From the IMG/VR virus record IMGVR_UViG_3300025030_000235, positions 1 to 40,411 of that record: 40,411 nt of DNA; one strand, 5' to 3'. This document shows positions 1-28,992 of the stretch, one piece after another. A program made the translations under genes and the position numbers. Every line of letters starts with the position of its first letter. Position 1 is the first letter of the stretch. A model generated the notes under the pieces. The model saw nothing but the letters and a program-made list of their open reading frames with translations, had not been told where the DNA came from and did not search any database. Source of the DNA: a virus.

Positions 1-522
1 ATGATCGCGGGGATTGGCAAGCAGACGCTCGACCAGGGGGTCGAGGTCGACGCCACTCCCACGGCCTTCACCGACGACGAGTTCCTCAAGCTCGATGCAC
101 AGATCAAGATCGACAACACGGTCTCCGACCACGTCGTCTCCGGAACCGTGCGCCTGGAGCGCGAGATCACGATCCGCGCGATCCCCGACACCAACGACTA
201 CGCGAAGCACATCATCCTCGGCAAGGAGAAGGCGAGCTGGAACCTCACCGGCCTATTCGACTCGACCTCCGAGGTGAGGGTGTTGGCGACGGGGCGGGCG
301 CAGCACTCGATCGAGCTGCTGTTCGGCCACCCGAGCAGTGCGAACCACTCGCTCTCACTCAAGAGCGAGAAGGCCCTGCTCTACCTCACCAACAACCCGT
401 CGGTGGGTCAGGGCAACGAGCGCGAGATCACGATCGAAGGCCAGGGGCACCCGAGGGGCGCGGCGAGCGCCTCGCAGATCCTCGCCGTCCTCAAGAACCC
501 CGACGCGGCGATCAGCTTCTGA
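1..522 (+). CDS. Probable tail tube (major tail) protein, possibly 5'-truncated
   Basis: This 173-residue protein has the mixed beta-strand composition expected of a siphovirus tail tube subunit and no signal peptide or membrane segment. It lies directly before the tail-assembly chaperone and the tape measure gene, which is where the major tail protein sits in lambda-like phages. The call rests mainly on that gene order. The reading frame is open from the first base of the window. The ATG at base 1 could be the true start or an internal methionine, because upstream sequence is not visible. The stop is TGA at 520-522. A head-tail joining or tail terminator protein is a less likely alternative. 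Confidence 0.5.
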   Translation: MIAGIGKQTLDQGVEVDATPTAFTDDEFLKLDAQIKIDNTVSDHVVSGTVRLEREITIRAIPDTNDYAKHIILGKEKASWNLTGLFDSTSEVRVLATGRAQHSIELLFGHPSSANHSLSLKSEKALLYLTNNPSVGQGNEREITIEGQGHPRGAASASQILAVLKNPDAAISF

Positions 523-534
523 TTGGGAGGCTAC

Positions 535-1062
535 ATGGAGGGACGCCCGCTTTTCCTTCGGACCATCGCAAGCCGTTTCGACGGCGTCTACCCGGTGCCG
601 GCGCCCGCGATCAACGAGGGCGCCGTGCTCTACCTCCGCCCGCTCACGATGACCAAGCTGCGCGAGATCGCGCTCCAGCATAAGCTGTGTAAGCGCTGTC
701 TGGGCTTCGGCGTCGTGAGCATCGGCGAGGGCGAGCACGCGCACGAGCAGCTCTGCCCGATATGCCGCGGCAACCACCCCAAGACGATGGGCGACTTCGG
801 GCCGCGCCACGACATCCTGCAGCACGCGCTCGCTCGCTGGGAGGGCGTGCTCGCCGAGGATCCGGTGACGGGCGAGATCGGGCCGCTCGAGCTGACGCCG
901 GAGGTGCGCGATTCGATCCCGCAGACGGACGGCTACGACGAGATCGTGCGGCTCGCCCGCGGCCTCGTGCAGCACGCGGACCAGGCAGAAAAAGGGGGCT
1001 CGAAACCTTCGCTCGCCGGCGATTCCGGTACGGCGCCGAGCGCCGAAGCGCCATCGAGCTGA
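535..1062 (+). CDS. Tail-assembly chaperone (gpG-like) with DnaJ-like Cys motifs
   Basis: This gene lies between the tail tube and tape measure genes, the usual place of the chaperone that coats the tape measure during tail assembly. The ATG at 535 is chosen because GGGAGG at 525-530 precedes it at good spacing. The 175-residue product has two Cys pairs, C52-x2-C55 followed by LGFG and C74-x2-C77 followed by RGNH. These resemble the CxxCxGxG repeats of DnaJ and suggest a bound zinc. The last third is acidic and then low complexity. An open downstream frame reached by a -1 shift suggests a longer second product. The chaperone role is inferred from position; the Cys motifs are seen directly. 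Confidence 0.6.
   Translation: MEGRPLFLRTIASRFDGVYPVPAPAINEGAVLYLRPLTMTKLREIALQHKLCKRCLGFGVVSIGEGEHAHEQLCPICRGNHPKTMGDFGPRHDILQHALARWEGVLAEDPVTGEIGPLELTPEVRDSIPQTDGYDEIVRLARGLVQHADQAEKGGSKPSLAGDSGTAPSAEAPSS
989..998 (+). promoter_or_regulatory. Candidate -1 ribosomal frameshift site
   Basis: The run AAAAAGGGGG occurs about 23 codons before the chaperone stop, read in frame as GAA AAA GGG GGC. Slipping back one base keeps AAA paired in the P site, although the A-site fit is imperfect, so this is not a canonical X XXY YYZ heptamer. The -1 frame stays open to 1292. Programmed frameshifting in this gene pair is a conserved feature of long-tailed phages (lambda G/GT). Confidence 0.45.
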
Positions 1063-1292
1063 GCCAATGGCAGGCGCAGGCATGGTTCGCGTGGCATCTA
1101 TGCGGCTCACAGCTCGCAGTCGCCCCCATGGGCGGCCTGCTGGGGCTGCGATATGAGGGGTGCGCCGTGATCCTCGCCGACTACGGGCTGCGCCACGAGG
1201 AGGTCTGGGAGGGGCTGCGCGTGATCGAGGCCGTGCGGGTCGAGGAAGCCGCGAAGAAGCGGGAGCACGACCATGGCCGGCGCCGTCGCTGA
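993..1292 (+). CDS. gpT-like extension of the tail chaperone, read by -1 frameshift
   Basis: This is the -1 frame continuation of the chaperone. It lacks a good start near its beginning: the first in-frame ATG is at 1128, inside the convincing coding part. The segment is rich in Trp, Leu and Ala and looks like real protein (LSQWQAQAWFAWHLCG and a basic C-terminus), unlike the low-complexity end of the zero-frame product. A fusion would be about 250 residues. Its stop at 1290-1292 overlaps the tape measure start at 1273, as in other GT/tape-measure junctions. In lambda the T domain of gpGT recruits the tail tube subunit. Confidence 0.5.
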   Translation, partial: RGLETFARRRFRYGAERRSAIELSQWQAQAWFAWHLCGSQLAVAPMGGLLGLRYEGCAVILADYGLRHEEVWEGLRVIEAVRVEEAAKKREHDHGRRRR

Positions 1293-4200
1293 TGTCCTGT
1301 TCAAGGCCGAGTTCGATGCTTCGGGCGCTATCATTGGCCTGAAGAAGGTTCAGTCCGAAGCCAGCGCGACGAAGCCGAAGACCGATTCCGCCGCCAGCTC
1401 GTTCAAGAATCTCGCCACGGCAGCAGCCGGCGCCGCGGTCATCGTGAAGCTCGGCGGCTTCCTCAAGGACTGCGCCAGTGCCGCCATGGAGAGCGAGCAG
1501 GCCACCGCGAAGCTGAACGCCGTGTACAAGGCGACGGGCGGCGTGGTCGGCATGAGCACGCAGCAGCTCGGTAAGCTCGCCTCTGAAATACAGGGCGCCA
1601 CCGGCGTATCCGACGAGATGGTGATGAGCGCCGAGGCGGTCCTCCTCACCTTCCGGTCGATCCAGGGCGAGGCGTTCCCGCGGACCATGAAGGCCGCAGC
1701 CGACCTCTCGGCTGTCTTCGGGCAGGACCTCAACGGGTCCGTGACGATGCTGGGCAAAGCGCTTGAGGACCCGATCAAGGGCATCACCAGCATGACGAGG
1801 GTTGGCGTCACCTTTTCAGAAGAGCAGAAGAAGGTGATCGCGAAGATGGTCGAGACGAATCACCTGGCCGACGCGCAGGCGGAGATCCTGCGCGTGGTTG
1901 AGCTCCAGGTCGGCGGCACGGCCGAGGCGATGGGCAAGACGCTCGCCGGGCAGCTCGGCATCCTGAACGAGACATGGGGCGACGCGAAGGAGGCGATCGG
2001 CGGGTTCGTCACGGGGGCCATCGCGGCGACGGGCATCGTGCCTGCGCTTACGTCGGTACTGCGCGGCATGACCGAAGGCCTCACCGAGATGGCCGGCAAG
2101 ACAGAGGTCGCGAACACCGCCCAGGAGTTGACCGCACACTCCCTCGAGTTGCTCATCCCGAAGCGGCAGGCGGAGATCGCCGCGCTCCAAGAGCAGATGC
2201 GGCACACCGATCACTCGTCGGACGCCTACGAGGCGCAGAAGAACAAGCTGATGTCGCTGATAGAGGAGCTGCACAGCTTCGAGCAGCAGCTCCCGCAGAC
2301 CACGGCGCAGGAGGATGCTGCCGCCGATGCGGCCAAGCGGGTCGGCGACGAGTCGGAGGGATCGAAGAAGAAGGTCGCCGAGCTGGGCGATCTGCTCGAT
2401 CAGTACTACGGCGAAGGCAAGACCTACTCAGCGACCGCCACGATCGCCGCGGACACAAGCGGCGCCTCGACCACGCTCATTGGCTTCCTGGAGTGGGTGA
2501 ACCAGCAATTCCCGCCCGGCGTCGCGCGGGAGATCGCGCTCGAGGCAGCCACAGCGCAGGCTGAGGGCGACCTCGCCGGATTCATGGAGCGCGTCGCGGA
2601 GATCCTGCCGCCGACGCTGCCCACGACCGTGGCTGTCGGCGCCGGCACTGCGCGCGAGGACGCGGCGGCAGTCGCCGCCGACATGAGGGCCGCGGTGCCA
2701 CTGAGCGTGCCAACGGCCGCGGACTTCGCGGCTGGGGTGGCACTCGCCGCAGCCGAGACCTACGCCGATGGCTTGACTGGCGCGGTTCCTGGCTCGGCGA
2801 CTACGACAGCGCTTTTCGCGCCCGGAAGCGCGCTCGGCGATGCTGCGGCATACGGCACCGGAGTAAGAGACGCGGTGCCGGGATCAGCGAGCACCACCGC
2901 ACTCTTCGCTCCCGGCAGCGCCATATCCGACGCGACACGCCTCGGTCGCGACCTCGCCGGGGCGGTCCCCGGTAGCGTCACCACCGAGGCCGCTTTTGTC
3001 CCCGGCACCACGGTTGCCGACGCGAGACGCCTCGGCAGTGACGTCCTCGGCGCTCTGCCGCCGAACGTGCCACTCAGCGCGCAGCTCATCAAGGGGAGCA
3101 CGGTAGCCGACGCCGGGAAGCTCGGCCGCGACGTCGCGGGCGCCATCCCCCCGGATGCTGCCACGGTGACAGCCAAGTTCGCGGACCTCGGCGCGCGCGC
3201 TGTCATCATCAACTTCTTGGGCAAGGTCGCCAAGGACTTCCCGCCCGACAAGGCCGCCGAGATCACCGCGCACTTCCGCGACGCGCAAGCCCGCGGCGAC
3301 GTGACCGGCTTCCTTGGCTACGTGAACACCGAGATCCCGGCGGAGAAGCGCCAGGAGCTGACCGCGGCGTTCGTCGACGTCCAGGCGCGACTCGATGCAC
3401 AGAAGCTTAAGACGGACATGCCGAGCCTCGTCGGTAAGAGCTACACGACGATCTTGCAGGCGAACCCCGACCCGGCGAGGACAAAGGCCAATGAGCTGGC
3501 GGCCGAGCTCGCGGCCGGCGCGGTGGCGATACCGCCGTGGCAGATCAGGCTCGAGGCTACGATTGAAGCCGACGAGGCGAAGGCACAGGCTGAGGCGGAA
3601 TTCAAGGCGTTCTTCGACTACAACATCGCCCCGCTGCTCGCCGACAGCATCACCCAAGGGATCGTCGACGGGCTCGCCGGCGAGGGAATCGACGAGGCCG
3701 TAAAGGCGCTCTTCGACGCACTCGGCAACCTTGGTCGCTCGATGCTGAAGACCTTCCTCGAAGGGATCATCAGCAGCAAGGACGTGCGGCAGTCGCTGAT
3801 CGACGCCGGCGTCCTGACATCGAATGGCAGGTTCAACGCCGCTGGCACGCTTTCGGCCGCCGGCGGGATGGTCTACCAGGCCGGGCAGCAGCGCGGGTCG
3901 CGGGGCATGGGCGCGCTCGGCGGGGCGATGTCCGGGGCCGGAATTGGGCTGATGTTTGGTACAGTCGGCGCGATCGTAGGCGCCATCATCGGAGGCATCG
4001 CCGGATACCTCACATCCGGTACTCGCACCGAAGGCTACAAGATCTGGATGCGCGAGCGCGAGGGGGAGACCGCCGGGATTCGCGCCGGGATGTGGTACGG
4101 CCCGACGGGCAAGCCCGAAGAGCAAGAGATGGCGCGCGAGATGCTGTCGAAGTACCACAAGGCGGCCGGCTTCTTCCGCGACGTCCTCGACATGCTCGAG

Positions 4201-6033
4201 GCGCCACTCGGCGATCTCCCCGCCATTGAGATCTCACTCGAAGCGCAGACCAAGGACTTCTCGACCTTCTGGCGCACCTTCCTCACCGGCACTCTGCCCC
4301 GAGCCGTGTTCCAGGAGTACAAGCCGGCACTGACCAGCGCCATGGAGGCGTTCGGCATCGAGACGGGCCGCATCAACCTGGAGCTCGCGAAGTTCAACAC
4401 GGCGCCCTTCGAGGAGGCAGCGCAGGCGCTCAAGGCGTGGATCGGTGCGATCGTCGCCGTGCGTGACACGATCGAGCTGACCGGGCTTTCCTTCGAGGAC
4501 TTCAAGGCGCGCGCGCTTGAGGGGCCGCTCGAGGCATGGCGGCGCGACAACGCCAAGGTGCAGGCCGATCTCCTGCGCTGGTCGGGGCAGCTCTCGCAGC
4601 TCGACACCGAAGAGCAGGTCGAGCAGGCCGGGAAGATGGTGCAGGCGATCAACGCGCAGATCGACGCGAACGCCAAGCTGCTGGCGACGCTCGACGATCT
4701 CCGCCAGAAATACGTCGTGCAGCCGCGCACCTTCGACCTGGCCGTGGGCGCCGGCGGATCCGACATGCTCGAGCGCGTCGACGCCGTGCTCTCGGCCGTG
4801 GTCACGGAGCTGGCGGACGCCGCGACCATCGAGCAGCTCGTTGCGGCTGCGGAAGGGGCGGACGCCGCGCGCCAGGCGCTCAAGGACCTCGCTGACGTCT
4901 ACGCCGAGGCGGTCGCCGACTTCACCACCGCCCGCGGCGAGCTTGACGCCCTGGTCGCCGCGATGACTCCAGTGCAGCCGCTCGCGCTGGAGGACGCGCT
5001 CGCTGGCGTCCAGGACCTCATGACCGGGATCGACCAGCTCGCGCCGGCGGACGCGGCGGCGCGGGTGCGCGAGGTCACCGCCCTGCTCTCCGAGCAGTAC
5101 GAAATGCAGAAGGCGAACCTCGAGCAGATCACCAACATCCAGGAATCGCTCGCCGCCTCCTGGGATAAGCTCTTCGGTAAGTGGGCAGAGGGGAAGCTGT
5201 CGCCCGAAGAGGTGATGGCGCAGCAGCAGGCGGCCCTCTCAGGGATCGTCGATCAGCTCGCTGCTGCCGCCTCTCCTGAAGAGATCGACCGGCTGGTGCG
5301 GCAGGCACAGGAGCTAGCCGGCACGCTCTGGGATAACCTCACGAGCCAAATCGAGGCGCTGGCCGGCGAGGGCGAGGATACGTCGGCGCTCCTGGCCCAG
5401 CGGGACGCTGTAGAAGCGCTGGCGCAGGAGATCCGCACCGCGTCGGAGGCGCAGCTCGAGACGTATCGCCAGCAGGTCGAGGCGGAGATCGAGCTCATCA
5501 AGGCGGCGGCGATCGCCGCGGCCGATATCCTCGACACGCGCGCGTCCCAATACGACGAGATCCTCAGTCAGGTGCAGGCCGCGGACGCCGCGATCGCCGA
5601 CGCACTCGAGGGAATCGGCACGCGCCTCGACTCGTGGGAAGCGGAGATCGCGGCATCGAACGAGCTGCTTGATCAGCGAGCCGACGAGCTGCTCGCGGCG
5701 CTGACCGCCGAGACCGGCGCCCGCCAGGACCTCATCCAGGAGATCGATCGAACCGAGGACACCTTCCACGACGCCGGCGATGCCACCGATGACGTGATCG
5801 ACGGGTACATCGATCTCAAGAACGCACTCGACGAGGCGCGCGGGGCGATCGACTACCTGCGCCAGCAGAGCACCTCGGCAGGCGACAGCCTGTCGGGCGC
5901 TGCCACGGCCGCAGGCGCGATGGCGACGAACACAGCGAGCGCCGCGACCGCCGCGAACGATGCAGCCGCCGCGCTGCGCAACGTTCGCGACAGCGACCCG
6001 ACCCGCGCCACGGGCCGGTGGGAGGAGCCGTGA
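1273..6033 (+). CDS. Tail tape measure protein
   Basis: This 1586-residue protein sets tail length and is ejected with the DNA. The first 250 residues match the common prophage tape-measure N-terminus, including a run of predicted helices and segments such as GVTFSEEQKKVIAKMV. Residues 474-623 hold five 30-residue repeats. Around residues 880-915 there is a Gly/Ala-rich hydrophobic stretch that could cross the host inner membrane. The C-terminal 500 residues are strongly helical and coiled-coil-like. I see no lysozyme or peptidase motif. The ATG at 1273 overlaps the frameshift product of the chaperone, and the stop overlaps the next gene. Confidence 0.92.
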   Translation: MAGAVADVLFKAEFDASGAIIGLKKVQSEASATKPKTDSAASSFKNLATAAAGAAVIVKLGGFLKDCASAAMESEQATAKLNAVYKATGGVVGMSTQQLGKLASEIQGATGVSDEMVMSAEAVLLTFRSIQGEAFPRTMKAAADLSAVFGQDLNGSVTMLGKALEDPIKGITSMTRVGVTFSEEQKKVIAKMVETNHLADAQAEILRVVELQVGGTAEAMGKTLAGQLGILNETWGDAKEAIGGFVTGAIAATGIVPALTSVLRGMTEGLTEMAGKTEVANTAQELTAHSLELLIPKRQAEIAALQEQMRHTDHSSDAYEAQKNKLMSLIEELHSFEQQLPQTTAQEDAAADAAKRVGDESEGSKKKVAELGDLLDQYYGEGKTYSATATIAADTSGASTTLIGFLEWVNQQFPPGVAREIALEAATAQAEGDLAGFMERVAEILPPTLPTTVAVGAGTAREDAAAVAADMRAAVPLSVPTAADFAAGVALAAAETYADGLTGAVPGSATTTALFAPGSALGDAAAYGTGVRDAVPGSASTTALFAPGSAISDATRLGRDLAGAVPGSVTTEAAFVPGTTVADARRLGSDVLGALPPNVPLSAQLIKGSTVADAGKLGRDVAGAIPPDAATVTAKFADLGARAVIINFLGKVAKDFPPDKAAEITAHFRDAQARGDVTGFLGYVNTEIPAEKRQELTAAFVDVQARLDAQKLKTDMPSLVGKSYTTILQANPDPARTKANELAAELAAGAVAIPPWQIRLEATIEADEAKAQAEAEFKAFFDYNIAPLLADSITQGIVDGLAGEGIDEAVKALFDALGNLGRSMLKTFLEGIISSKDVRQSLIDAGVLTSNGRFNAAGTLSAAGGMVYQAGQQRGSRGMGALGGAMSGAGIGLMFGTVGAIVGAIIGGIAGYLTSGTRTEGYKIWMREREGETAGIRAGMWYGPTGKPEEQEMAREMLSKYHKAAGFFRDVLDMLEAPLGDLPAIEISLEAQTKDFSTFWRTFLTGTLPRAVFQEYKPALTSAMEAFGIETGRINLELAKFNTAPFEEAAQALKAWIGAIVAVRDTIELTGLSFEDFKARALEGPLEAWRRDNAKVQADLLRWSGQLSQLDTEEQVEQAGKMVQAINAQIDANAKLLATLDDLRQKYVVQPRTFDLAVGAGGSDMLERVDAVLSAVVTELADAATIEQLVAAAEGADAARQALKDLADVYAEAVADFTTARGELDALVAAMTPVQPLALEDALAGVQDLMTGIDQLAPADAAARVREVTALLSEQYEMQKANLEQITNIQESLAASWDKLFGKWAEGKLSPEEVMAQQQAALSGIVDQLAAAASPEEIDRLVRQAQELAGTLWDNLTSQIEALAGEGEDTSALLAQRDAVEALAQEIRTASEAQLETYRQQVEAEIELIKAAAIAAADILDTRASQYDEILSQVQAADAAIADALEGIGTRLDSWEAEIAASNELLDQRADELLAALTAETGARQDLIQEIDRTEDTFHDAGDATDDVIDGYIDLKNALDEARGAIDYLRQQSTSAGDSLSGAATAAGAMATNTASAATAANDAAAALRNVRDSDPTRATGRWEEP
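2692..3141 (+). repeat. Five tandem 90-bp (30-residue) repeats inside the tape measure gene
   Basis: Units begin at 2692, 2782, 2872, 2962 and 3052, exactly 90 bp apart. Each encodes a 30-residue unit beginning A(V/L)P and containing a Gly-Ser or similar turn and a DA..LG segment. The first and fifth units are the most divergent, and a partial sixth starts at 3142. Two similar segments flank the array, one near 2473-2610 (FLEWVNQQFPP) and one near 3205-3345 (FLGKVAKDFPP). Confidence 0.85.
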
Positions 6034-14129: not shown

Positions 14130-14505
14130 CTACGAAGCCATCGAGAATTCGGGCTGTCTGCGCGCGGCCGGCGGCCGACTCGCGCTCTACCTCGCCGGCG
14201 CCGCCATCTTCGCGGCGCTCGTCTGGTGTGTAAGCTGCTCGCATGCGCGCCCGGCGCCCACGCCGACCCCAGTGCCGCCGGCTCCCGAGGTCATCAGGGT
14301 GCGAGTGCCGATCTACGACTCGTGTCCGCCGCCGGCGGATCTGCCGCGGCCCGACTACTGGCCGCTGGTCGTGGATGCGCTCTCGCAACCGACGCTCGAA
14401 CTCAAACTGCAGGTGCTCGAATACCTGATCCGGAGCGCAGTCGGCTACGGCGACGACCAGGCGCTTATCCTCGAGCCGTATCGGCGACCGCCGCCGGCGC
14501 CATGA
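14116..14505 (+). CDS. Putative o-spanin (Rz1-like)
   Basis: This 129-residue protein overlaps the i-spanin gene in another frame. A hydrophobic segment (LAGAAIFAALVWC) ends in VSC, a weak lipobox, and is followed by a Pro-rich stretch (ARPAPTPTPVPPAP) as in Rz1 proteins. About 20 residues precede the hydrophobic segment, which is longer than a usual signal peptide, so a later start or a plain membrane anchor is possible. Its role is to link the outer membrane to the i-spanin. Confidence 0.5.
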   Translation: MPEGDYEAIENSGCLRAAGGRLALYLAGAAIFAALVWCVSCSHARPAPTPTPVPPAPEVIRVRVPIYDSCPPPADLPRPDYWPLVVDALSQPTLELKLQVLEYLIRSAVGYGDDQALILEPYRRPPPAP

Positions 14506-14511
14506 GTCGGA

Positions 14512-14756
14512 TTTGCCCCGGCGTTTGCCCACGGCGAGATCGCGTCTCGGCGGTGTGGCGTAAGTGCGTGAGGGGGTTGGCGGCCCGTAGGGGAATCGAA
14601 CCCCTGCTTCCGGCGTGAGAGGCCAGCCGCGGGCGCTGTGCAAGTTTCGGCTGATCAGCTAACTAGCTTGAGGCTCCGGCGCTTGCGCTGTGCGCCGTCC
14701 CGCGACGGTCTCAACTGATGTGCCGATTTGTGCACCGCGTTTTGCCCCTGGGCAAA
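14512..14756. repeat. Four TTTGCCC heptamers around the att core (candidate arm sites)
   Basis: TTTGCCC occurs at 14512-14518 and 14524-14530 on one side of the tRNA fragment. On the other side it occurs at 14741-14747 with the inverse GGGCAAA at 14750-14756, forming TTTGCCC-CT-GGGCAAA. The latter pair lies inside the integrase coding region. Tyrosine integrases bind such short arm-type repeats flanking the crossover site. Confidence 0.45.
14578..14626 (-). other. attP core: 3' part of tRNA-Glu (CTC), including CCA
   Basis: Read on the minus strand, this 49-nt stretch gives an anticodon stem pairing, a CUC anticodon loop, a short variable region, a perfect 5-bp T-stem with TTCGATT loop, the 3' acceptor strand and CCA. 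The D-arm and 5' acceptor strand are absent on the far side, so it is not a complete tRNA gene. Such a tRNA 3' remnant next to an integrase is the classic att core that restores the host tRNA on integration. It lies 28 bases from the integrase stop. Confidence 0.75.
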
Positions 14757-15935
14757 CGCTTCGATCGCCGCCAGCGCCGGGTGCTGCCGGGCACGCTCGA
14801 GCTCGCGCTCGAGGCTCCCGACGACGGCGTGCGCGTAGTGGCGCTGGAGCATCGTCAGGCTCGTGCCCGTGACCTGCGCGACGACCTGAGCGGACACGCC
14901 GGCGACGAGCAGATGGGTGATGCGAGAGTGGCGGAGGGCGTGGAGCGGCGTGTCCCCGGCGAGCCGCTCCCCCGCCTCAAGGCGGTGGTTGGCGACGCGC
15001 AACAACCGGCGCCACACGTAGCGCCAGTTGTCGGCGCGCGTCCCGGTGCGCGGCGCGACCAGCACCGGGGAGTCCGGCTTCGGCCGCCGGGCGGCGTACG
15101 CCTCGCGCAGGTGCGCGGCGAGGACCGGGTCGAGCGGACACACGACGTTCCTGTGCCCCTTCGTCTCCGGGAAGACGATCAGCCCGCGCGCCAGCTCGAC
15201 GTTGCGCCAGAGCAGCGCGTCAATCGCCTCGGGGCGGCCGCCCGTGTAGTAGCCGAGCATCACCCGCGTAACGATCGGGAGGTACTGCCGCCGGCGATCC
15301 TCGCGCGGCAGCCGCTCCCAACGCTGCCAGACATGGCAGGCGGCGAGCACCGCGCCGACCTGGCGCTCGGACAGCGCCGGGGGCTGGCGGAGCGGCTCCG
15401 GGAGGTTCCTCAGTCGGCGCATGGGGTTCTCGCCGAGCAGCTCGCGCTCGACGGCGAGGTTCAGCGCAGCGCGGATGATGTTGACGTGGGCGTTGCAGCT
15501 CCGCGGCCCGAGCTGGCGCTGCTCGCGCAGCTCCGTCCGCCAGGCGGCGACACGGCCGGCGGTGAGCTCGACCGCCGGCGTCTCCGCGCCGAGCGTGTCA
15601 CGGATGGTCCTCGCCCGGTACGCCTCGTTCCCTTCCCACCGTGTCCCGCGTTCGCGGCAGTCCGCCGCGTAGGCGTCGAGGACCTGGGCGAGCGTCACGG
15701 GCGCGGCGTGGGCCTCCTCAACGCGCAGGATCTCCGCCTCGATCTCCCGGATGATCTCCGCCCGGCGCCAGGCCGCCCACTGCCGCGACCGCGCGAGATC
15801 CGCGGGGTACGGCGAGCGCTCGCGGGGCCAGTGCACACGGCCGATGCTGTCCGCGTACCGGAAGCGGAGGTCCCAGACGCCGCGGGCCTCGTCGCGGGTG
15901 AGGTAGGAAGGCGCGGTGCGAGGACGGCGCGGCAT
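14655..15935 (-). CDS. int: Tyrosine integrase
   Basis: The 426-residue protein integrates the phage at a host tRNA-Glu gene, by inference from the adjacent att core. Catalytic residues are visible: Arg234 (YTGGRPEA), Lys259 (PETKGH), His332 and Arg335 (HALRH) and the nucleophile Tyr367 (QRHYAHA). The usual second His is Thr358 in GTSL, as in many phage integrases. An N-terminal arm-binding region and a SAM-like core-binding region (about residues 80-180) precede the catalytic domain. ATG 15935 was chosen; an in-frame GTG at 15953 is possible. It is probably transcribed with the upstream minus-strand genes. Confidence 0.92.
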   Translation of the reverse strand: MPRRPRTAPSYLTRDEARGVWDLRFRYADSIGRVHWPRERSPYPADLARSRQWAAWRRAEIIREIEAEILRVEEAHAAPVTLAQVLDAYAADCRERGTRWEGNEAYRARTIRDTLGAETPAVELTAGRVAAWRTELREQRQLGPRSCNAHVNIIRAALNLAVERELLGENPMRRLRNLPEPLRQPPALSERQVGAVLAACHVWQRWERLPREDRRRQYLPIVTRVMLGYYTGGRPEAIDALLWRNVELARGLIVFPETKGHRNVVCPLDPVLAAHLREAYAARRPKPDSPVLVAPRTGTRADNWRYVWRRLLRVANHRLEAGERLAGDTPLHALRHSRITHLLVAGVSAQVVAQVTGTSLTMLQRHYAHAVVGSLERELERARQHPALAAIEAFAQGQNAVHKSAHQLRPSRDGAQRKRRSLKLVS

Positions 15936-16000
15936 GACCACTATGGTGGGCACAAACGGAGGCCGAGAACAAGTGCCGCGGCAGAATATCGGTCCACTTC

Positions 16001-16213
16001 TTATCGTGGAACGCGGCCCCGCAACGCTTCCGGTGCATTCCGGATCCTCGCCGCGAGGCGCTTGAGGCTGTCGCTTATGTTGCCGAGAACCTCGTAGAGC
16101 GCATCATCTTCTGGCCGAGGGCCGTGGATGAAGCGGCGCTGGTTAAGAACCGCGCCTGCGAACTCGTCGATCTCTCCTGCCACGTAGTCAAAGAGTTCAC
16201 CATCGTCTGGCAT
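16001..16213 (-). CDS. Small acidic protein, unknown, in repressor operon
   Basis: This 70-residue protein starts at ATG 16213 with GGGAG at good spacing. Its first half is acidic (MPDDGELFDYVAGEIDEF) and its second half basic and helical. It has no signal peptide or Cys pairs, and I do not recognise a family. It is the last gene of the minus-strand repressor operon before integrase, 12 bases downstream of the 80-residue gene, so it may be expressed in lysogens. Confidence 0.5.
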   Translation of the reverse strand: MPDDGELFDYVAGEIDEFAGAVLNQRRFIHGPRPEDDALYEVLGNISDSLKRLAARIRNAPEALRGRVPR

Positions 16214-16225
16214 CTGCTGCTCCCT

Positions 16226-16468
16226 TCATGTCGGGCACATTCGCCCGATCCACACCCACTCGACACCGAACTCCGCGGCTGCCGCGTCCGACGCCGGCCT
16301 CCGTTCCTCAAGCCGCACCGACACGCCTTCATAGGTGACCAGCACCCCGGACTGCGGCGGCTCCTCGAGGTGCGCGAACAGCATCATCGGGACGTCGACC
16401 AAGTGCGAGCCGTCGACGAGCACGAGCGCGTCGTAGGGACCGCTGCCGCACTCGTCGGAGATGTTCAT
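16226..16468 (-). CDS. Small unknown protein in repressor operon
   Basis: The 80-residue product starts at ATG 16468, overlapping the preceding gene by four bases. It has alternating strands (YDALVLVDGSHLVDVPMMLF, GVLVTYEGVSVRL) that suggest a small alpha/beta or beta domain, and no export signal. I do not recognise it. Its place between an exported protein and another small gene suggests they belong to one cassette. Confidence 0.5.
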   Translation of the reverse strand: MNISDECGSGPYDALVLVDGSHLVDVPMMLFAHLEEPPQSGVLVTYEGVSVRLEERRPASDAAAAEFGVEWVWIGRMCPT

Positions 16469-17271
16469 GGCGATGGCGCCGGGCTAGGTTCTGGTCCCTT
16501 GACCACACGCCCCACTTGGAAGACAAACGTGTACTCGACCTTCCGATCGCCAGCGACGATCGGAAGGAGCACCCGCATGGTCCCATCTGGGGCCAGCGCG
16601 GCGGCGACCTCGGCCTCGGTCTTTCCCTCCAGAATAAAGAGAGCAAGAAGCGGTCGGATCGTCCACTGGCCTGGGACGAAGCGCGAACCCTCGCTCCAGT
16701 GGATGTTGCTGGCGGGAATGACTGCGTCGCTGTGCTTCGTCCCCCGAGGCACGATCGTCGGGGGCAGCGATTTCCCGGTGTCCATGTACTTGACGCCGGT
16801 GTGTATCACGCGGTCGGCTGTACCTTCCAGACCCACGAAAGCCGCCTCATCCCACTGCAGCGCGAGCGTGGACTCGGCCAGATTCTCAACGATGAAGTGG
16901 AGCATCTTGGAGTCCGGCTTCCATGCGATGGCAATCAGCTCATCACCATAGTTGTCCGAGCCGGCGGCAACCCGTTGAAGGTCTCCCCCCACTGGCTGCT
17001 TTTCGACTGCAGCCAGGGAGAGCGTGTTCCACCCCTGCCAGTGTGGCTCCGGCGGCTTCTTGGGCTTCTTGGCTTCCGCGACCGAGACGAGAGCTGCAAG
17101 CCCCGCCGCCGCGATGATCATCCCGCAGCCCATCGCGCGGCCAGCCTTCCGCTGCCGACCGGATTTTGTCAGGGGAATCCCGATCTGTCGTGAGAGCTTC
17201 CCCTTCGCGGCCGAGAGGCCGATCGCACGCTTCCATGAAAACGAGAACCCGTAGGACCGCCCGCGACTCAT
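16465..17271 (-). CDS. Exported or membrane-anchored protein with basic N-terminal extension
   Basis: The 268-residue product has a strong ribosome site, AGGAGG just before ATG 17271. Residues 1-46 are basic (SFSWKRAIGLSAAKG then LTKSGRQRKAGR). Residues 47-68 form a hydrophobic segment ending AEA, like a signal peptide or anchor, with a possible internal start at Met47. The remainder is a beta-rich domain with VIHTGVKYMDTGK and PPTIVPRGTKHSD, a texture seen in secreted or lipoprotein domains; I cannot name the family. It overlaps the LTD gene by four bases. It may act on the cell surface of lysogens, for example in exclusion, but that is inference. Confidence 0.6.
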   Translation of the reverse strand: MSRGRSYGFSFSWKRAIGLSAAKGKLSRQIGIPLTKSGRQRKAGRAMGCGMIIAAAGLAALVSVAEAKKPKKPPEPHWQGWNTLSLAAVEKQPVGGDLQRVAAGSDNYGDELIAIAWKPDSKMLHFIVENLAESTLALQWDEAAFVGLEGTADRVIHTGVKYMDTGKSLPPTIVPRGTKHSDAVIPASNIHWSEGSRFVPGQWTIRPLLALFILEGKTEAEVAAALAPDGTMRVLLPIVAGDRKVEYTFVFQVGRVVKGPEPSPAPSP

Positions 17272-17918
17272 GGCGCCTCCTGATCTGCTTGCGGGAGTCT
17301 ACGCCGCAAGTGGCCGGTCGCGACCCCGTGGCGCCTGTTGCGCGGCACCGGCGGGCCGGCGGTGAAGTCGGCCGCGTTGTCTCCGGTGTCGGTGGCCCCG
17401 GCGCCGAGACGCAGCGCCGCCGCTGTGTTGTTGAGTGTCGGTGCTGCGTGTCCACCTTCTGCGCACGACGCCGCGCCGTACCCGACGAGGTCGGCGATCC
17501 CGCCGCCTGCCGGGCACGAACCGACGAGCTGCACGGCCGACGCCGCGAGCGCCACCCTGCCGGAGATCGCGTTGATAGGGATGTTGCCCTCGGCATCGGG
17601 CACCGGGAGCGCTGGGCCACCCGCGTCGCCGGCATGTTCCGCGATGAGGTAGTACGTCCCCGGGTGCATCGTGCCCGTGAGCGACGTCGACGCCCAGTCG
17701 CCGCTGGTGGGCGGCGCGTACTGCACGGTCCAGCCGTCGAGGTCCACAAGCTCGGGGCCGCGGTTGTAGAGCTCAATGAAGTCGCGGTCGAAGAGACCGC
17801 CGAGGTTGCCGCCGCCGCCGTAGACCTGCGAGATCACGACTTGAGCCTCACCAGTGGTTGCAAGGACGCCGGCGAGAGCAACCCACGCGGCGCAGCTTAT
17901 GATGCACCGTTCGCCCAC
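17268..17918 (-). CDS. Secreted lamin-tail-domain (LTD) protein
   Basis: The 216-residue product begins at GTG 17918 and has a signal peptide (AAWVALAGVLATTGEAQ, likely cleaved after A or Q). The mature start VVISQVYGGGGN, then DFIELYNRGPELVDLDGW, is the recognisable beginning of a lamin tail domain (Ig-like). Later parts include a TYYLIAE strand and a Cys-containing loop, also usual in bacterial LTD proteins. Such domains occur in extracellular proteins. It overlaps the repressor stop by 22 bases, so it is probably co-transcribed with the repressor and made in lysogens. The C-terminal tail is Arg-rich and may be non-domain sequence. Confidence 0.75.
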   Translation of the reverse strand: MGERCIISCAAWVALAGVLATTGEAQVVISQVYGGGGNLGGLFDRDFIELYNRGPELVDLDGWTVQYAPPTSGDWASTSLTGTMHPGTYYLIAEHAGDAGGPALPVPDAEGNIPINAISGRVALAASAVQLVGSCPAGGGIADLVGYGAASCAEGGHAAPTLNNTAAALRLGAGATDTGDNAADFTAGPPVPRNRRHGVATGHLRRRLPQADQEAP

Positions 17919-18613
17919 CAGACCACCCGTCCGACGAGGATCTCCTGCAACGGCCGCCCCTTAAGGTCGATCGCGAAGGGAAGGTGATGCGACTCCGGGT
18001 TGTCTGGCGTGCAGACGAGCTGATCTCCGCGCAGAGAAACGCGCTTCACGGTTACGCCCTCGGCGCCCGGGTCGCGCACCACGAAGATGCGCTTGTTCAT
18101 GGCCGCAGCCCACTTGTTGATCGGCCTCGTGTCGATCGCGATCAGTGCGCCCGGCTGGATCGTGTCGAGCATTGACTCCCCGAAGTGGCCGCCGGCGAGG
18201 TGAGCGAGGTAGAGCTTGTTGTGTGGCACCCCGATGCGATCGAACCATCCGGCGCGGAAGGCGTACCGCTCGCTCGAGAAGCGGTCGAAGGTGAGGAGCG
18301 GGACACCGGCCGCGAGCTTGTCGGCGAGACACGGCAGAGCGACGAAGTCGCTGCCTGCGACCGCCACGTCCTCAGGCTGAGGCGCCTCCGTCAGAGCGAG
18401 AAGGTAATCCGCTGGTAGCTTCAGCTCGCGGCAGATTCGCGCCAGCGTCCACCAATCGGGCTCGGTCTTGTCGCTCATCCACTGGGAGACTGCTGCTTCG
18501 GTGATCCCAAGCTTCTCCGCGAGCTTCCGCTGCGTCATACCCTCGCGACGAACCCACCTCGACAGCCTGTCCAGCACAACTTCTTTCCACGCTTCACGTT
18601 CCGGTGCTGTCAT
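17897..18613 (-). CDS. CI-like repressor (HTH plus S24 peptidase domain)
   Basis: The 238-residue product starts at ATG 18613. Residues about 12-70 are an XRE helix-turn-helix (MTQRKLAEKLGITEAAVSQW). Residues about 90-235 are a LexA/CI-type S24 domain with the catalytic Ser147 (FGESMLD) and Lys190 (VTVKRV). Ala102-Gly103 in KLAAGVP matches the usual self-cleavage site, so SOS-type induction through RecA is plausible. It is divergent from the Cro-like gene with operator-like repeats between them, and heads the minus-strand operon. Role: maintain lysogeny. Confidence 0.9.
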   Translation of the reverse strand: MTAPEREAWKEVVLDRLSRWVRREGMTQRKLAEKLGITEAAVSQWMSDKTEPDWWTLARICRELKLPADYLLALTEAPQPEDVAVAGSDFVALPCLADKLAAGVPLLTFDRFSSERYAFRAGWFDRIGVPHNKLYLAHLAGGHFGESMLDTIQPGALIAIDTRPINKWAAAMNKRIFVVRDPGAEGVTVKRVSLRGDQLVCTPDNPESHHLPFAIDLKGRPLQEILVGRVVWWANGAS

Positions 18614-18693
18614 TAAGCAAACCTTAATTCCGATAAGGGGGGCTTGACAATCACTAAAGCTAGCCGTACATTGCTTAAGAGGTGCTAAAGCCG
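18612..18693. promoter_or_regulatory. Divergent control region of repressor and Cro-like gene
   Basis: A rightward promoter is visible: TTGACA at 18644-18649, 17-bp spacer, TACATT at 18667-18672. Operator-like half-sites are spread across the region: ATTAAG-N5-CTTAAT at 18612-18628, CTAAAGC at 18654-18660, TGCTTAA at 18672-18678 and CTAAAGC at 18685-18691. The leftward repressor promoter is not clear. TTGTCA on the minus strand (18650-18645) is a weak -35 candidate. Confidence 0.65.
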
Positions 18694-18921
18694 ATGGATG
18701 AACTCCGAAAGTTCCTAGCACGACACGGGCTCTCGCAGACGGACCTTGCCGATGCGATCGGCGTAACGAACGCCTTCGTGTCCCTTCTGCTCGCCGGTAA
18801 GAGCGGGGCCTCGCTTTCGACAGCGAAGGACATACTCGGCTTCTGCCGACAGCGCGAGCCGTGGCTCACCTTCGAGCAGCTCTTCGGCGAGTCGGCGCTC
18901 CCACACGTGGCGAACGAGTAG
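18694..18921 (+). CDS. Cro-like HTH protein
   Basis: The 75-residue product is a small helix-turn-helix protein (LSQTDLADAIGVTNAFVSLL) transcribed away from the repressor, as expected of Cro, which turns off the repressor promoter for lytic growth. ATG 18694 is chosen; an in-frame GTG at 18682 is also possible. AAGAGG lies about 11 bases upstream. The rightward promoter with TTGACA sits just before it. Confidence 0.8.
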   Translation: MDELRKFLARHGLSQTDLADAIGVTNAFVSLLLAGKSGASLSTAKDILGFCRQREPWLTFEQLFGESALPHVANE

Positions 18922-18924
18922 CCA

Positions 18925-19200
18925 ATGGCACGCACCCCCGGCCCGTGGCGTGTGGCTGTGACCCTTCCGGGCGAGTGCAACCTCGGCGACGGCCTCTACA
19001 TCGTGGATGCCGCCGGCGACCCTGCGGCGTTTGCGTCGTCGGGCAATCGCGAGGATGCCCTCCTGATCGCCGCCGCCCCTGATCTCCTCGACGCCTGTCT
19101 CTCGGCGCTCGGGACGCTGCACGGTCGGAAGGAGACCATCTGTGTCGTCGTCAGCCTGGAGCTGAAAGCGGCGATCGCAAAAACCAGAGGGGAGGTGTAG
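18925..19200 (+). CDS. Small early phage protein, unknown
   Basis: This 91-residue protein carries NREDALLIAAAPDLLDACLSAL, close to the LIAAAPDLL signature of a very common short phage protein family of unknown function. It starts three bases after the Cro-like gene's stop. No domain with a known activity is visible. Confidence 0.6.
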   Translation: MARTPGPWRVAVTLPGECNLGDGLYIVDAAGDPAAFASSGNREDALLIAAAPDLLDACLSALGTLHGRKETICVVVSLELKAAIAKTRGEV

Positions 19201-22902: not shown

Positions 22903-23063
22903 GATACGTCATCTCCGGTTCCAAGACAATCAGCGCCGAGCAGGCTATCGGCGCCGAGTCGGCGGCGGCGGCTATCGCGGAATTCGAGCGAGTCAATGGC
23001 ATCCCCGCGGAGGACGGCGTCGTCACGCACATTGACGAGTGCCCAGTGGGGGGTGGGCAGTGA
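22899..23063 (+). CDS. Small unknown protein, 54 residues
   Basis: This short gene starts at GTG 22899, overlapping the previous stop, and ends overlapping the SbcD start. The product (MRYVISGSKTISAEQAIGAE start) looks like a small alpha/beta fold with one Cys. No function recognised. Confidence 0.45.
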   Translation: MRYVISGSKTISAEQAIGAESAAAAIAEFERVNGIPAEDGVVTHIDECPVGGGQ

Positions 23064-24241
23064 TCACCCTCCTCTGTATTGGGGATCTCCACCTGCGCTC
23101 CGGGCCGCATCTCGAGGACGTGCGCCGCTGCCTGGACTTCGCGGCTAAGCTCGCCGACGAGCGCCAGGTCCACGGCGTGCTTCTGGCCGGCGACATCTTC
23201 GAGGGGAAATCATCAGAGGAAGAGCGCGACATCTTTGGCGACGCCCTCGCTGACCTCTCTGTTGACGGCCACGGCCAGCCGCGCCACGTGCTGGTCGTGA
23301 AGGGGAACCATGACCGCCCGCTCGACCTGGAGGTCTACGCCGGCTACCCGCACGTCACGGTCATGGAGCGGCCGGGCATCGTGGCGCTCGGCCACTCGCG
23401 CAGCACGACGACGGTGGACGTGCTCTGCTGCCCATGGCCTGAGCGCGCCTTCTTGGCGGCGAACGGCTTCGCCGGCGAGCAGGCGGACCAAGCGGGGAGT
23501 GCTGCGCTCGCCGCGATGCTCCGGGCGATGGTGGCGACGCGCGAGCACCCGGAGCGCCCGCTCGTCGTGCTCGCGCATCTTCAGGTGCTCGGCGCGATCT
23601 CGAGCTCGGCGCAGCCTTTGGTAGGTCGCTCGATCGAGATCGCGCTCGGCGAGCTGCAGGACCTTGGCGCCGCCGCGATCGTGCTCGGTCACGTCCATCG
23701 ACCTCAGGAACTCGCGCCGAACATCCATTACATCGGGTCATTCACCTGCCACGATTTCGGCGAGCAGGGCGAGCAGAAGCGCGTCGGAATCCTGACGATC
23801 GACGACGCCGGTACCGCGAGTTGGGAGTGGGTGTCGGTGCCCTGTCGGAGGTGGCTCACGGTCGAGGCTGAGATCGGCGAGGACGGGCCCCCAGTCGAGG
23901 ACTGGCCGACAGTGACCACAGCAGCCGACGAGGAGGCCGTGATTGCCGGCGGCATGGAGGCGCTCGCGGCTGGGTCGTGCGTCCGCTACGTCTACCGCTG
24001 CGACGAGACCAACGAGTCGCTCTTCGATCACGCCACCATCACCCGCCGTTTCGCCGCCGCCCACACCCTGAAGATCGAGCCTCGCGTCGAGCGGGCCGCG
24101 CGCGTCCGCTCGGCCGAGGTGGCCGCAGCACGGACCGCGCTCCAGAAGCTCGAGGCGTGGGGTCAGGCGACCGGGACCGAGATCACGCCGGCGCTCGTCG
24201 AGAAGCTGCACGCCTTGGAAAGTGAGGTCGCAAATGTCTGA
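23060..24241 (+). CDS. sbcD: SbcD/Mre11-like nuclease
   Basis: The 393-residue protein carries the calcineurin-like phosphoesterase metal ligands: Asp9 and His11 (GDLHL), Asp45 (GDIFE), Asn83, His84 and Asp85 (GNHD), His173 (AHLQ) and His211/His213 (GHVHRP). It should process DNA ends with the SbcC ATPase encoded at 26251. In phages such pairs serve recombination and replication fork repair. GTG 23060 is chosen because it overlaps the preceding stop. The C-terminus would bind the SbcC coiled-coil base. Confidence 0.88.
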   Translation: MITLLCIGDLHLRSGPHLEDVRRCLDFAAKLADERQVHGVLLAGDIFEGKSSEEERDIFGDALADLSVDGHGQPRHVLVVKGNHDRPLDLEVYAGYPHVTVMERPGIVALGHSRSTTTVDVLCCPWPERAFLAANGFAGEQADQAGSAALAAMLRAMVATREHPERPLVVLAHLQVLGAISSSAQPLVGRSIEIALGELQDLGAAAIVLGHVHRPQELAPNIHYIGSFTCHDFGEQGEQKRVGILTIDDAGTASWEWVSVPCRRWLTVEAEIGEDGPPVEDWPTVTTAADEEAVIAGGMEALAAGSCVRYVYRCDETNESLFDHATITRRFAAAHTLKIEPRVERAARVRSAEVAAARTALQKLEAWGQATGTEITPALVEKLHALESEVANV

Positions 24242-25420: not shown

Positions 25421-26254
25421 ATGCAACTGCGGCTTGCTGCGTGCCTTTATGTCCTCAGTGATCCGTGTACGAACGAAATCCGGTATGTGGGCTGGACTTC
25501 AAAAAGACCCACGGACCGCCTAGCTGGTCACCTCGCTCAAGCGCGCTCCGGGAATCAGGACAACCACCGCTGCAAGTGGCTCCGATCGCTTCTCTCTAAT
25601 GGGCAGCACCCAGTAATGCGGGTAGCCGCCTGGATGGAGATTGCGGACGCTCCAATTGCGGAGATTCGATACATCGCCATCCTTCGCGCCGCCGGCACTC
25701 GCCTCGTCAACAGCACTGATGGCGGAGAGGGGACACTGGGGCGTTTCCATGGGGCAGAAACGCGCTCCAGGATCTCAGCAGCCCTCATTGGCAGGCGACT
25801 GTCACCGGAACACCGCGCGACAATTTCGCGCATCCAGGCCGGGAGAAAGAAACCACCAAGAACCGTAGAGTGGCGCAGGAAACAGTCCGTTGCCCAGAGC
25901 GGAAAACACCCTGCAGAGAAAACTCGGCTGAAGTTGTCGTTAGCAAGCAAGGGTAAGAAGCGGCGACCATTCACGGCTGAACATCGTCAGGCGATTTCTC
26001 GCGCCAGGAGAGGGAAGCCCCTGAGCGCTGCTGTTCATGATGCGGCGCGCCGAGTAAACCTCGGGAGCCATCAGACGCCGGAGCACCGCGCGAGGATTTC
26101 GGCAGCTACCAAGGGGCTGCCCAAAACCCCAGAACACCGGGCGAAGCTCGCGGTTGCCAATCGCGGAAAGAAGCTCACCCCTGAGCATCGCCAGAGAATC
26201 TCCGACGGACTTCGCGCCCACCGCGATCGTCGACAGGTGAAGGGGGTCGTATGA
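25421..26254 (+). CDS. GIY-YIG homing endonuclease with NUMOD3 repeats
   Basis: The 277-residue protein begins with a GIY-YIG-type nuclease fold (ACLYVLSDPCTNEIRYVGWT, PTDRLAGHLAQ). The C-terminal half holds several NUMOD3-type DNA-binding repeats (LSPEHRATIS, FTAEHRQAIS, TPEHRARIS, LTPEHRQRIS). This is a free-standing homing endonuclease. G+C is lower than in the neighbouring genes. Its stop overlaps the SbcC start by four bases. Confidence 0.92.
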   Translation: MQLRLAACLYVLSDPCTNEIRYVGWTSKRPTDRLAGHLAQARSGNQDNHRCKWLRSLLSNGQHPVMRVAAWMEIADAPIAEIRYIAILRAAGTRLVNSTDGGEGTLGRFHGAETRSRISAALIGRRLSPEHRATISRIQAGRKKPPRTVEWRRKQSVAQSGKHPAEKTRLKLSLASKGKKRRPFTAEHRQAISRARRGKPLSAAVHDAARRVNLGSHQTPEHRARISAATKGLPKTPEHRAKLAVANRGKKLTPEHRQRISDGLRAHRDRRQVKGVV

Positions 26255-28992
26255 GACTGAAGAAGCTAACCATCAAGGGAATCACGAGATTCTCGGCGCC
26301 GGTAACCGTAGATTTTGAGGCCCTTGGAAGCGGTCTGGTGGCGATCGCTGGAGACAATGGGGCCGGGAAAACTACGCTGCTCGAGGCTCCGTACGCAGCG
26401 CTCTACACTGAACTGCCAACGCGTCCGGGCGGCCTCTACGGCGTCGCCCACGGTCGCGACGCCAGGATCGAGGTCGAGCTGGAATCGGGTGGCCTGCCCT
26501 ACCGCGCGATGGTCGCGGTGGACGCCGTCGGGCAGCGGACCGAGGCGTATTTGCAGAACGGCGACGGCTCACCGATCACCGACGGAAAGGTCCGATCGTA
26601 CCTCGCGGAGACCGAGAGGCGCTTCGGGAGTGCCCGCCTTATGCTTGCAGCGGCGCTCTCGTCTCAGAACAAGCGCGGGTCTTTTCTCGACCTCAGTAAG
26701 GTCGATAGGAAGGCGCTGCTCGCCGATATTCTTGACACCGAGGGGCTCCAAGTCCTCTCCGAGTCCGCACGCGCGCGAGTGCGCGCCGGCGAGCTGGCGC
26801 TCGAGCGTGCCCGCGGGCAGCTCGCCGAGGCGGAGGCGGAGATCGCCCGGCTCGAGGCGGGGACGGTCGACGTCGATTCCGCGCGCGCCACCCGCGATCG
26901 GCTGGCCGCGGAGCTGGCCGAGCAGCAGGCGACCGTCGAGGACCTCCGCTCGCGCTACTCGACGGTGCAAGCCGCGCGCGCGGCGGCCGAGGAGGCGGTC
27001 AAGGGTCGGGCCCGGATCGCGACCGCGCTCGACGACGTGAGCGCCCGCCAGAAGACATTGCACGGGCAGCGCGAGGGGCTCGGCGCCGAGAAGGTGGCGC
27101 TCGAGGGCCGGATCGCGAAGGCGCGGGAGGCCGCGGAAGCGGACGCAGCGCGGGCGCCGGAGTACCGGGAGGCGGCCCTGGCGCTGACGGCGGCGCGATC
27201 CCGGCGCGACGATCAGCGCCAGTACCTCACCGCGGCCGATGCCGATGTATCTGCAGCGCGGCACAGCCTCACCACCCTGCGGGAGAGCCAGGCGGCCGCC
27301 GCCAGTATCCGCGCTCAACTCGACGCGGCCGTGGCGCGCCGTGAGGACGCGCAAGCTCTCGCTGGCCGCATCGGGGAGTACCGCGACGCCATTGCCGCGG
27401 TCGAGGCCCTGCGCGAGCGGCGAGCGGTGTACCAGGCGGACCTGGAGCGCGAAGCGCCGGCGGTCACGGCGGCGCGTGAAGCGCTGACCGCGAAGCAGCG
27501 CGAGGTCGCACCGATCGGGGCGGCGCGCGCCGGACTGGAGGCGGCGAAGGCGCAGGCGGAGCTGCTGGCGGCGGTGCCATGCACCGCCCATGGGCGATGG
27601 GCGCCGCTGATCGCCGGCGACCTACAGGAACTCCCCGACCTCCGCCACGCCGGCAACCCGGTTGCGTTGGGCGCGGAGTGCCCACTACTGGCCAGCGGGC
27701 GCACGTCCCGTGACCGGGTGCCCGAGTTCCAGGCGGCGGTCTCCGCGCTCGAGCTGGCAGAGGCCGAGGTCCCCGGGCTGGAGGCCGCGGTCACCAACGC
27801 CGAGGCCCGGGTCGAGGCGACGACGCGGGAAATCGCCATGTGCGCCGATGCGCTCGACGACGCGACGGCGATCGCCGCCGCTATTGCCGGCGCGCCGGAG
27901 GCCGCGGCGCGCGTCGAGCGCGAGCAGGCGGAGATCGGCCGGCTCTCCGATGAGGTGGCAGAGGTGGCGGGCGCCGAGAGCCTGATCCCTCCGGCGCAGG
28001 CAACTCTCGCGGCGGCCGAGGAGCTGCGCGCGGCGACCGCGGCAGTGCTCTTCGACGTCGAGGCCGAGATCGCCCGCCTCGAGCCGGTCGCCGCCCAGCT
28101 CCCCGTCGCCGAGGCGGCGGCGCAGCGTCTCACCGAGCTCGCCGCCGAGCTCGCGGCCGGCCTCGAGGCGCTCGACCGCCGGCGCGCGGAGATGGCCGAG
28201 GAGTCAGAGCGCCTCGCAGCCCGGCGGACCGCGCTCGAGGGGGAGCTGGCGGATTGCCCCGAGGTCGACGTCGCCGGTCTCGATCGCCAGCTCGCCGACC
28301 TCGGCGAGCGCGGGCGACAGGCGCGAGTTACCGTCGAGCAGTTGCAGCGCCGCGCCCAGGATGCCGCGGCGGAAGTGACACGCGCCGAGGAGGCGACCAA
28401 GCGGCTGGCCGAGCAGCGAGGCCGCGCGGACGCGAGCCGGGAGGCGATCGCCGTCTCGACGCGCGACCTGGGCGACTGGACGGTACTCGAGCGGGCGTTC
28501 GGGCGCGACGGCGCACAGGCGCTGCTGATCGACGCCGCAGGTCCCGAGTTGTCGTCGCTGACCAACGAGCTGCTGACGGCGACGTTCGGCTCTCGCTTCG
28601 AGGTGAAGTTCCTGACGCAAGCCCCGAAGGCGGACGGACGGGCCATGAAAGAGGTCATGGACCTGTCGATCATCGACCACGAGCGCGGCCGTGAGGGCGC
28701 CGTCGACTCGCTCTCGGGCGGGGAGAAAGTAGTGATCTCGGAGGCCGTGTCACTCGCCCTCGCGCTGTACGTGGGGAAGCACTCCGGCCGGCGTTACGAA
28801 ACGCTTTTCCGAGACGAAACGGCGTCCGCTCTCGACGAGCAGAACGCCGTGCGGTACATCACGATGTTGCGCAAGGCGAGGGATCTCGGCGGTTTTTCGC
28901 AGGTGATCTTCGTCGCCCACCAGAGCCAGACCTGGGCTATGGCTGACGCGGTGCTCTACCTCGCCGACGGGAACTGTGAGGTGCGGCAGTGA
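26251..28992 (+). CDS. sbcC: SbcC/Rad50-like SMC ATPase
   Basis: The 913-residue protein has Walker A at residues 34-42 (GDNGAGKTT), a long helical coiled-coil middle, an ABC signature LSGGEK near residue 820 and a Walker B-like LFRDETASALD near residue 852. It should pair with the SbcD nuclease. The usual zinc-hook CxxC is replaced by a split arrangement, C444-x2-H447 and C477-Pro, about 33 residues apart. Normal E. coli SbcC is about 1050 residues, so this is a compact phage form. It belongs to the early recombination module. Confidence 0.9.
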   Translation: MRLKKLTIKGITRFSAPVTVDFEALGSGLVAIAGDNGAGKTTLLEAPYAALYTELPTRPGGLYGVAHGRDARIEVELESGGLPYRAMVAVDAVGQRTEAYLQNGDGSPITDGKVRSYLAETERRFGSARLMLAAALSSQNKRGSFLDLSKVDRKALLADILDTEGLQVLSESARARVRAGELALERARGQLAEAEAEIARLEAGTVDVDSARATRDRLAAELAEQQATVEDLRSRYSTVQAARAAAEEAVKGRARIATALDDVSARQKTLHGQREGLGAEKVALEGRIAKAREAAEADAARAPEYREAALALTAARSRRDDQRQYLTAADADVSAARHSLTTLRESQAAAASIRAQLDAAVARREDAQALAGRIGEYRDAIAAVEALRERRAVYQADLEREAPAVTAAREALTAKQREVAPIGAARAGLEAAKAQAELLAAVPCTAHGRWAPLIAGDLQELPDLRHAGNPVALGAECPLLASGRTSRDRVPEFQAAVSALELAEAEVPGLEAAVTNAEARVEATTREIAMCADALDDATAIAAAIAGAPEAAARVEREQAEIGRLSDEVAEVAGAESLIPPAQATLAAAEELRAATAAVLFDVEAEIARLEPVAAQLPVAEAAAQRLTELAAELAAGLEALDRRRAEMAEESERLAARRTALEGELADCPEVDVAGLDRQLADLGERGRQARVTVEQLQRRAQDAAAEVTRAEEATKRLAEQRGRADASREAIAVSTRDLGDWTVLERAFGRDGAQALLIDAAGPELSSLTNELLTATFGSRFEVKFLTQAPKADGRAMKEVMDLSIIDHERGREGAVDSLSGGEKVVISEAVSLALALYVGKHSGRRYETLFRDETASALDEQNAVRYITMLRKARDLGGFSQVIFVAHQSQTWAMADAVLYLADGNCEVRQ

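Follow-up and report, generated by a model that had tools for sequence, protein, structure and literature searches.

A repressor-linked cassette of a temperate phage with a free lamin tail domain and an anchored fusion protein, a candidate for lysogenic conversion

Between the repressor and the integrase of a temperate tailed phage lie four genes that form a further candidate for a repressor-linked conversion cassette, with an unusual content. We tentatively read them as a prophage-expressed "moron" (conversion) set that is carried on the CI transcript and hinders superinfecting phage, with two predicted exported proteins that probably alter the surface of the lysogen. The prophage genes that alter a living lysogen are those expressed along with the repressor, and most of them have no assigned role. 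The cassette offers two handles: a lamin tail domain (LTD) that a phage uses by itself, and an exported domain, as yet unclassified, that is present in phages and plasmids of several phyla. If either exported protein were to give phage resistance, it would represent a new class of exclusion proteins, and one that is widely searchable.

Four genes in the lysogeny module

The stretch of DNA analysed here (the window) is an IMG/VR virus record of 40,411 nt with 68.6% GC. A sister record, IMGVR_UViG_3300025154_000159, is about 99.9% identical to the window and circularly permuted, beginning with window 9242-40411, continuing with 9.2 kb that the window lacks and ending with window 1-5662; because of this near-identity and permutation, we regard the two as a real temperate tailed phage of ~49 kb that has been seen twice. 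Over 14400-18700 the two contigs are 100% identical, and a substitution test on the cassette was therefore impossible. Elsewhere in the window, a gene pair at 23060-24241 and 26251-28992 resembles, by eye, an SbcD and SbcC type nuclease and ATPase.

The presumed operon begins with a CI-like repressor of 238 aa (17897..18613, minus strand) that has HTH and S24 peptidase domains (PF01381, 9.3e-9; PF00717, 1.5e-7; phrog_4 transcriptional repressor, 1.1e-24). On the same strand follow gene 1 (P0001; 17268..17918, 216 aa, GTG start), which overlaps the repressor gene by 22 bases; gene 2 (P0002; 16465..17271, 268 aa), with an AGGAGG ribosome-binding site before its ATG and a 4-base ATGA overlap with gene 1; gene 3 (P0003; 16226..16468, 80 aa), encoding an acidic protein (net -9) and overlapping gene 2 by 4 bases; and gene 4 (P0004; 16001..16213, 70 aa), which has GGGAG before its ATG and is separated from gene 3 by a gap of 12 bases. 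All of these borders and overlaps had been given exactly in an earlier note on this DNA, whose span of 16001-18613 had the geometry right but took in the repressor; the cassette proper is 16001-17918.

At 68.6% GC, chance ORFs of at least 70 aa occur about 3 times per kb per strand, so that the length of an ORF is poor evidence by itself. Homologues that match in the same frame establish genes 1 and 2 as real. By codon usage, the given frame was the best of six for each of genes 1 to 4 (0.27, 0.19, 0.35 and 0.20 bits per codon, respectively; mean of the other genes, 0.36). For genes 3 and 4, the evidence of reality is this codon usage together with the overlap or close spacing, to which gene 4 adds its RBS-like GGGAG; gene 4 is the least certain of the four, its frame being only marginally the best (0.20 bits per codon vs 0.18 for one antisense frame). 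Both are orphans, without a family in Pfam, PHROGs, NCBIfam or PADLOC and without relatives in phages, plasmids or IMG/VR apart from the sister contig. A match of gene 3 to a Klebsiella phage (E 0.3) was ignored.

Downstream, a tyrosine integrase gene (14655..15953, minus strand; PF00589, 2.3e-10; phrog_1 integrase, 3.4e-33) starts 47 bases beyond gene 4 and is followed by the 3' part of a tRNA-Glu(CTC) gene (14587..14619, minus strand), which is unique in the window and is the probable attP core; the cassette thus sits between the repressor and the integrase/attP. Copies of this core with 2 mismatches in two bacterial genomes fall in tRNA-Glu(ctc) genes called by ARAGORN. A host search of 297 Acidobacteriota genomes returned no exact match to the core, and no close relative of the integrase was found in Acidobacteriota genomes. 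On the other side of the repressor gene, the cI-cro operator region (18613..18689) contains three operator-like TTAAG-N5-CTTAA-like palindromes (18613-18627, 18633-18647 and 18675-18689) and, by the promoter scan, one sigma-70-like promoter, TTGACA-17-TACATT at 18644-18672, which is directed towards cro. All 3 matches to the palindrome motif in 40 kb, at up to 2 mismatches, lie within this gap, a point in favour of co-transcription with the repressor from a test that is partly circular, the motif having been read from there.

The earlier note had singled out a terminator between the repressor and the cassette as evidence against its reading; a scan of 14400-19000 gave no terminator-like site, where chance would have given 2.2, and no unusual fold was seen in the gap preceding the integrase. 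The scan of the same region also gave no minus-strand promoter match, using a sigma-70-like consensus that may not be the host's. The cassette genes are co-oriented and contiguous with the repressor, with no terminator between and no gap between CI and gene 1, and the cro and lytic genes lie on the opposite strand. The most economical reading, and the simplest, is that a single transcript runs from the cI promoter to the end of gene 4 and may go on into the integrase. Since CI carries an S24 domain, it may be cleaved upon DNA damage. Co-transcription, expression in the lysogen and location of the products at the envelope are what we infer from this arrangement and from the proteins themselves, and our view of the host's cell-envelope type is a guess.

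The two predicted exported proteins

The earlier note had attributed signal or anchor segments to two of the genes, and the hydrophobic segments CIISCAAWVALAGVLAT (mean hydropathy 2.13) and CGMIIAAAGLAALVSVA (2.27) are indeed real. It had also called the gene set undescribed, which holds for the set as far as searched: apart from this phage and the near-identical sister contig, nothing with the same four genes turned up. The description does not extend to the parts, as gene 1 encodes a recognizable LTD protein and relatives exist for each half of gene 2.

Gene 1 encodes a signal peptide followed by a stand-alone LTD (PF00932, 4.1e-12), with a score of 46.9 bits that exceeds the curated cut-off of 34.3. 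Its nearest relatives, at 39-49% identity, are the LTDs of longer secreted proteins in genomes of Acidobacteriota, Actinomycetota and Bacillota; where complete, these are ~800-1850 aa long, and several have a DNase-type EEP domain after the LTD (recognized by eye). With ExeM of Shewanella oneidensis and similar LTD-EEP nucleases (PMC6085458), gene 1 shares the signal peptide and the N-terminal LTD, with up to 49% identity to proteins of this type from bacterial genomes, but it lacks their OB/YcgR-like and EEP catalytic domains: there was no EEP match in Pfam, and the protein ends at residue 216, just past the domain boundary, whereas complete relatives run on for at least 580 aa. Judged by its sequence, gene 1 corresponds to the N-terminus of an ExeM-like extracellular nuclease without the catalytic part. 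LTD proteins occurred in 34 of 99 Acidobacteriota genomes, where nearly all LTD matches lay in open frames of at least 400 aa and 5 of ~85 in frames of less than 300 aa, so that free-standing frames as short as gene 1 are rare there. A match of gene 1 to an unannotated scaffold (MT839447, E 4e-3) was not relied on.

Structurally, the AlphaFold model of gene 1 had a mean pLDDT of 79.6, mostly 85-94 over residues 31-130, and the top 12 PDB matches in Foldseek were all lamin Ig domains (human lamins, A/C and B1), the best with E 1.6e-4, probability 1.00 and a TM by target of about 0.6. The model therefore predicts a complete LTD with the lamin Ig-type beta-sandwich fold. To our knowledge, no anti-phage role has been described for an LTD.

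Gene 2 encodes a basic module (residues 1-47, net +12), a transmembrane or signal-anchor segment (~48-65) and a beta-rich domain (~107-261) that matched no Pfam family. The N-terminal module (17131..17271, minus strand; GxSFSWKRAxGxS...GIPLTxSGRQRKxG) belongs to a small phage transmembrane family, with 51-60% identity in alignment A9. Gene 2 thus reads as a small phage transmembrane protein fused to a predicted exported domain, and no other protein joining both parts was found. Three further leads on this protein were set aside: a resemblance to the anti-sigma factor CnrY (E 0.11-0.12, below the cut-off and confined to the anchor region), an Ig fold for the beta-rich domain (antibody matches at E 0.8, profile against PDB sequences) and an AlphaFold model built from two sequences (pLDDT 33.9).

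Proposed role and alternatives

Functionally, superinfection exclusion is our leading guess for the benefit of the cassette, favoured because of the analogy to Ltp in gene position and protein location. The ltp gene of the temperate S. thermophilus phage TP-J34 is a prophage-expressed exclusion gene in the lysogeny module, and its product lies outside the cytoplasmic membrane (PMC3952083), as is predicted for gene 2. The two proteins differ in that Ltp is a lipoprotein, whereas gene 2 has no lipobox on a reading of its sequence, its Cys (C49) opening the hydrophobic segment instead of following it, and is held by a signal-anchor whose cytoplasmic tail has a net charge of +12; nor did genes 1-4 match the Ltp repeat domain in Pfam at E up to 1. 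SieA of phage P22 (PMC10883804) has the same proposed site of action, the inner membrane of the lysogen, but family scans gave no sequence relation to the cassette.

Mechanistically, the four genes would ride on the CI repressor transcript in the lysogen, between repressor and integrase. The gene 1 product would be secreted as a free lamin tail domain, the gene 2 product would be anchored in the inner membrane with its basic tail inside and its beta-rich domain outside, and the products of genes 3 and 4 would remain cytoplasmic. Both exported proteins would act at the envelope, where, much as Ltp or SieA do, they would most likely hinder the entry of superinfecting phage DNA or the step at its receptor. 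On sequence grounds, the cassette is not assigned to Ltp, SieA or any defence system, since no known exclusion family matched: genes 1-4 had no PADLOC-DB match at E up to 1 and no known exclusion or defence family in Pfam, PHROGs or NCBIfam. A defence or toxin-antitoxin module was likewise rejected, the LTD being the only match above the cut-off in PADLOC, Pfam, PHROGs and NCBIfam. The interpretation of the earlier note, lysogenic conversion or superinfection exclusion, is partly supported by these results.

Conversion may also take a form apart from exclusion, with the LTD and the anchored domain changing the surface or the handling of eDNA (adhesion, biofilm, or competition with a host LTD nuclease), which we hold to be somewhat unlikely and, as a guess at the benefit, nearly as good as superinfection exclusion. 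It draws on the kinship of gene 1 with the LTD of ExeM-like extracellular nucleases and on how common LTD proteins are in Acidobacteriota. Shewanella ExeM reaches full nuclease activity with the help of its LTD but can largely do without the domain (PMC6085458), and the roles proposed for LTDs are membrane targeting of proteins (PMC6085458) or DNA binding (PMC4486849). Against a surface or eDNA function, no relative of the set was found in cellular genomes.

We consider it distinctly unlikely that the cassette is decaying or neutral cargo without a selected function, gene 1 being a piece of a captured host nuclease gene. In favour of decay, the catalytic part present in the relatives of gene 1 is missing from it, genes 3 and 4 have no known kin, and only one phage is known to carry the set; against it, every frame is intact and has a phage-like codon usage, the predicted fold of gene 1 is complete, and gene 1 stops just after the domain boundary with the RBS and ATGA coupling of the next gene in place. 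Least probable, and in our view very doubtful, is that the genes are transcribed chiefly after induction, from a different promoter, in a lytic or integration-linked role such as lysis timing or integrase control: the cassette adjoins the integrase with no terminator between, and lysis is a conceivable role for a small, basic-tailed membrane protein, but the strand is opposite to that of cro and the lytic genes, no minus-strand promoter matched the consensus, which may not be the host's, and there was no holin or spanin match in Pfam or PHROGs.

Relatives of the two halves of gene 2

A search of 50,697 phage records gave a single relative of gene 2, gp14 of the Bacteroides phage BS-TP2 (XPO95281.1; E 3e-16, tblastn), whose C-terminal exported domain is about 30% identical to that of gene 2. 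Its gene lies 20 bases behind an S24 repressor gene on the same strand of this unrelated phage, which counts in favour of the conversion reading; we estimate that a single homologue would fall into that position by chance with a frequency of ~1% (86 annotated features). The signal peptide of BS-TP2 gp14 is, unlike that of gene 2, of the ordinary N-terminal type, and the N-terminal halves of the two proteins differ; the BS-TP2 locus, unlike the cassette, has no LTD gene and no orphans alongside. Otherwise, the domain is seen on mobile elements, within exported proteins or lipoproteins: plasmids of Stanieria, Salinibacter (annotated as a lipoprotein) and Marinitoga, and a Mu-like phage contig (L034, 36% identity). 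A profile of the domain matched 4 of 297 Acidobacteriota genomes (E down to 8e-27) and 0 of 149 from Actinomycetota. Because the L034 copy is not beside a repressor and Acidobacteriota chromosomes carry the domain, it is not specific to lysogeny.

We see a smaller chance, worth stating as a conjecture, that the gene 2 domain marks an unnamed family of conversion proteins of temperate phages and plasmids from several phyla, repeatedly placed behind repressors, and that its fusion here and pairing with a free LTD make up a new two-part envelope exclusion system.

As for the other half, residues 1-65 of gene 2 match a family of small proteins of ~50-70 aa that have the basic stretch GIPLTxSGRQRKxG and, in most members, a hydrophobic C-terminal segment. 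These occur as stand-alone ORFs in phage contigs and, without annotation, on a Criblamydia plasmid; of the 297 Acidobacteriota genomes, 7 also have members (E to 2.6e-21). The loci of this family are window 17131-17271, L006 134-252, L024 4935-5150, L025 and L026 4980-5147, and L041-L046; at least one member, that in L042, lies near a terminase-like gene, by eye. Separately, the Marinitoga plasmid that encodes the gene 2 domain is pMARPI01 (L021 3845-4396), and a 2025 paper deals with phage-plasmid interactions in the Marinitoga host of this plasmid (PMC11921389).
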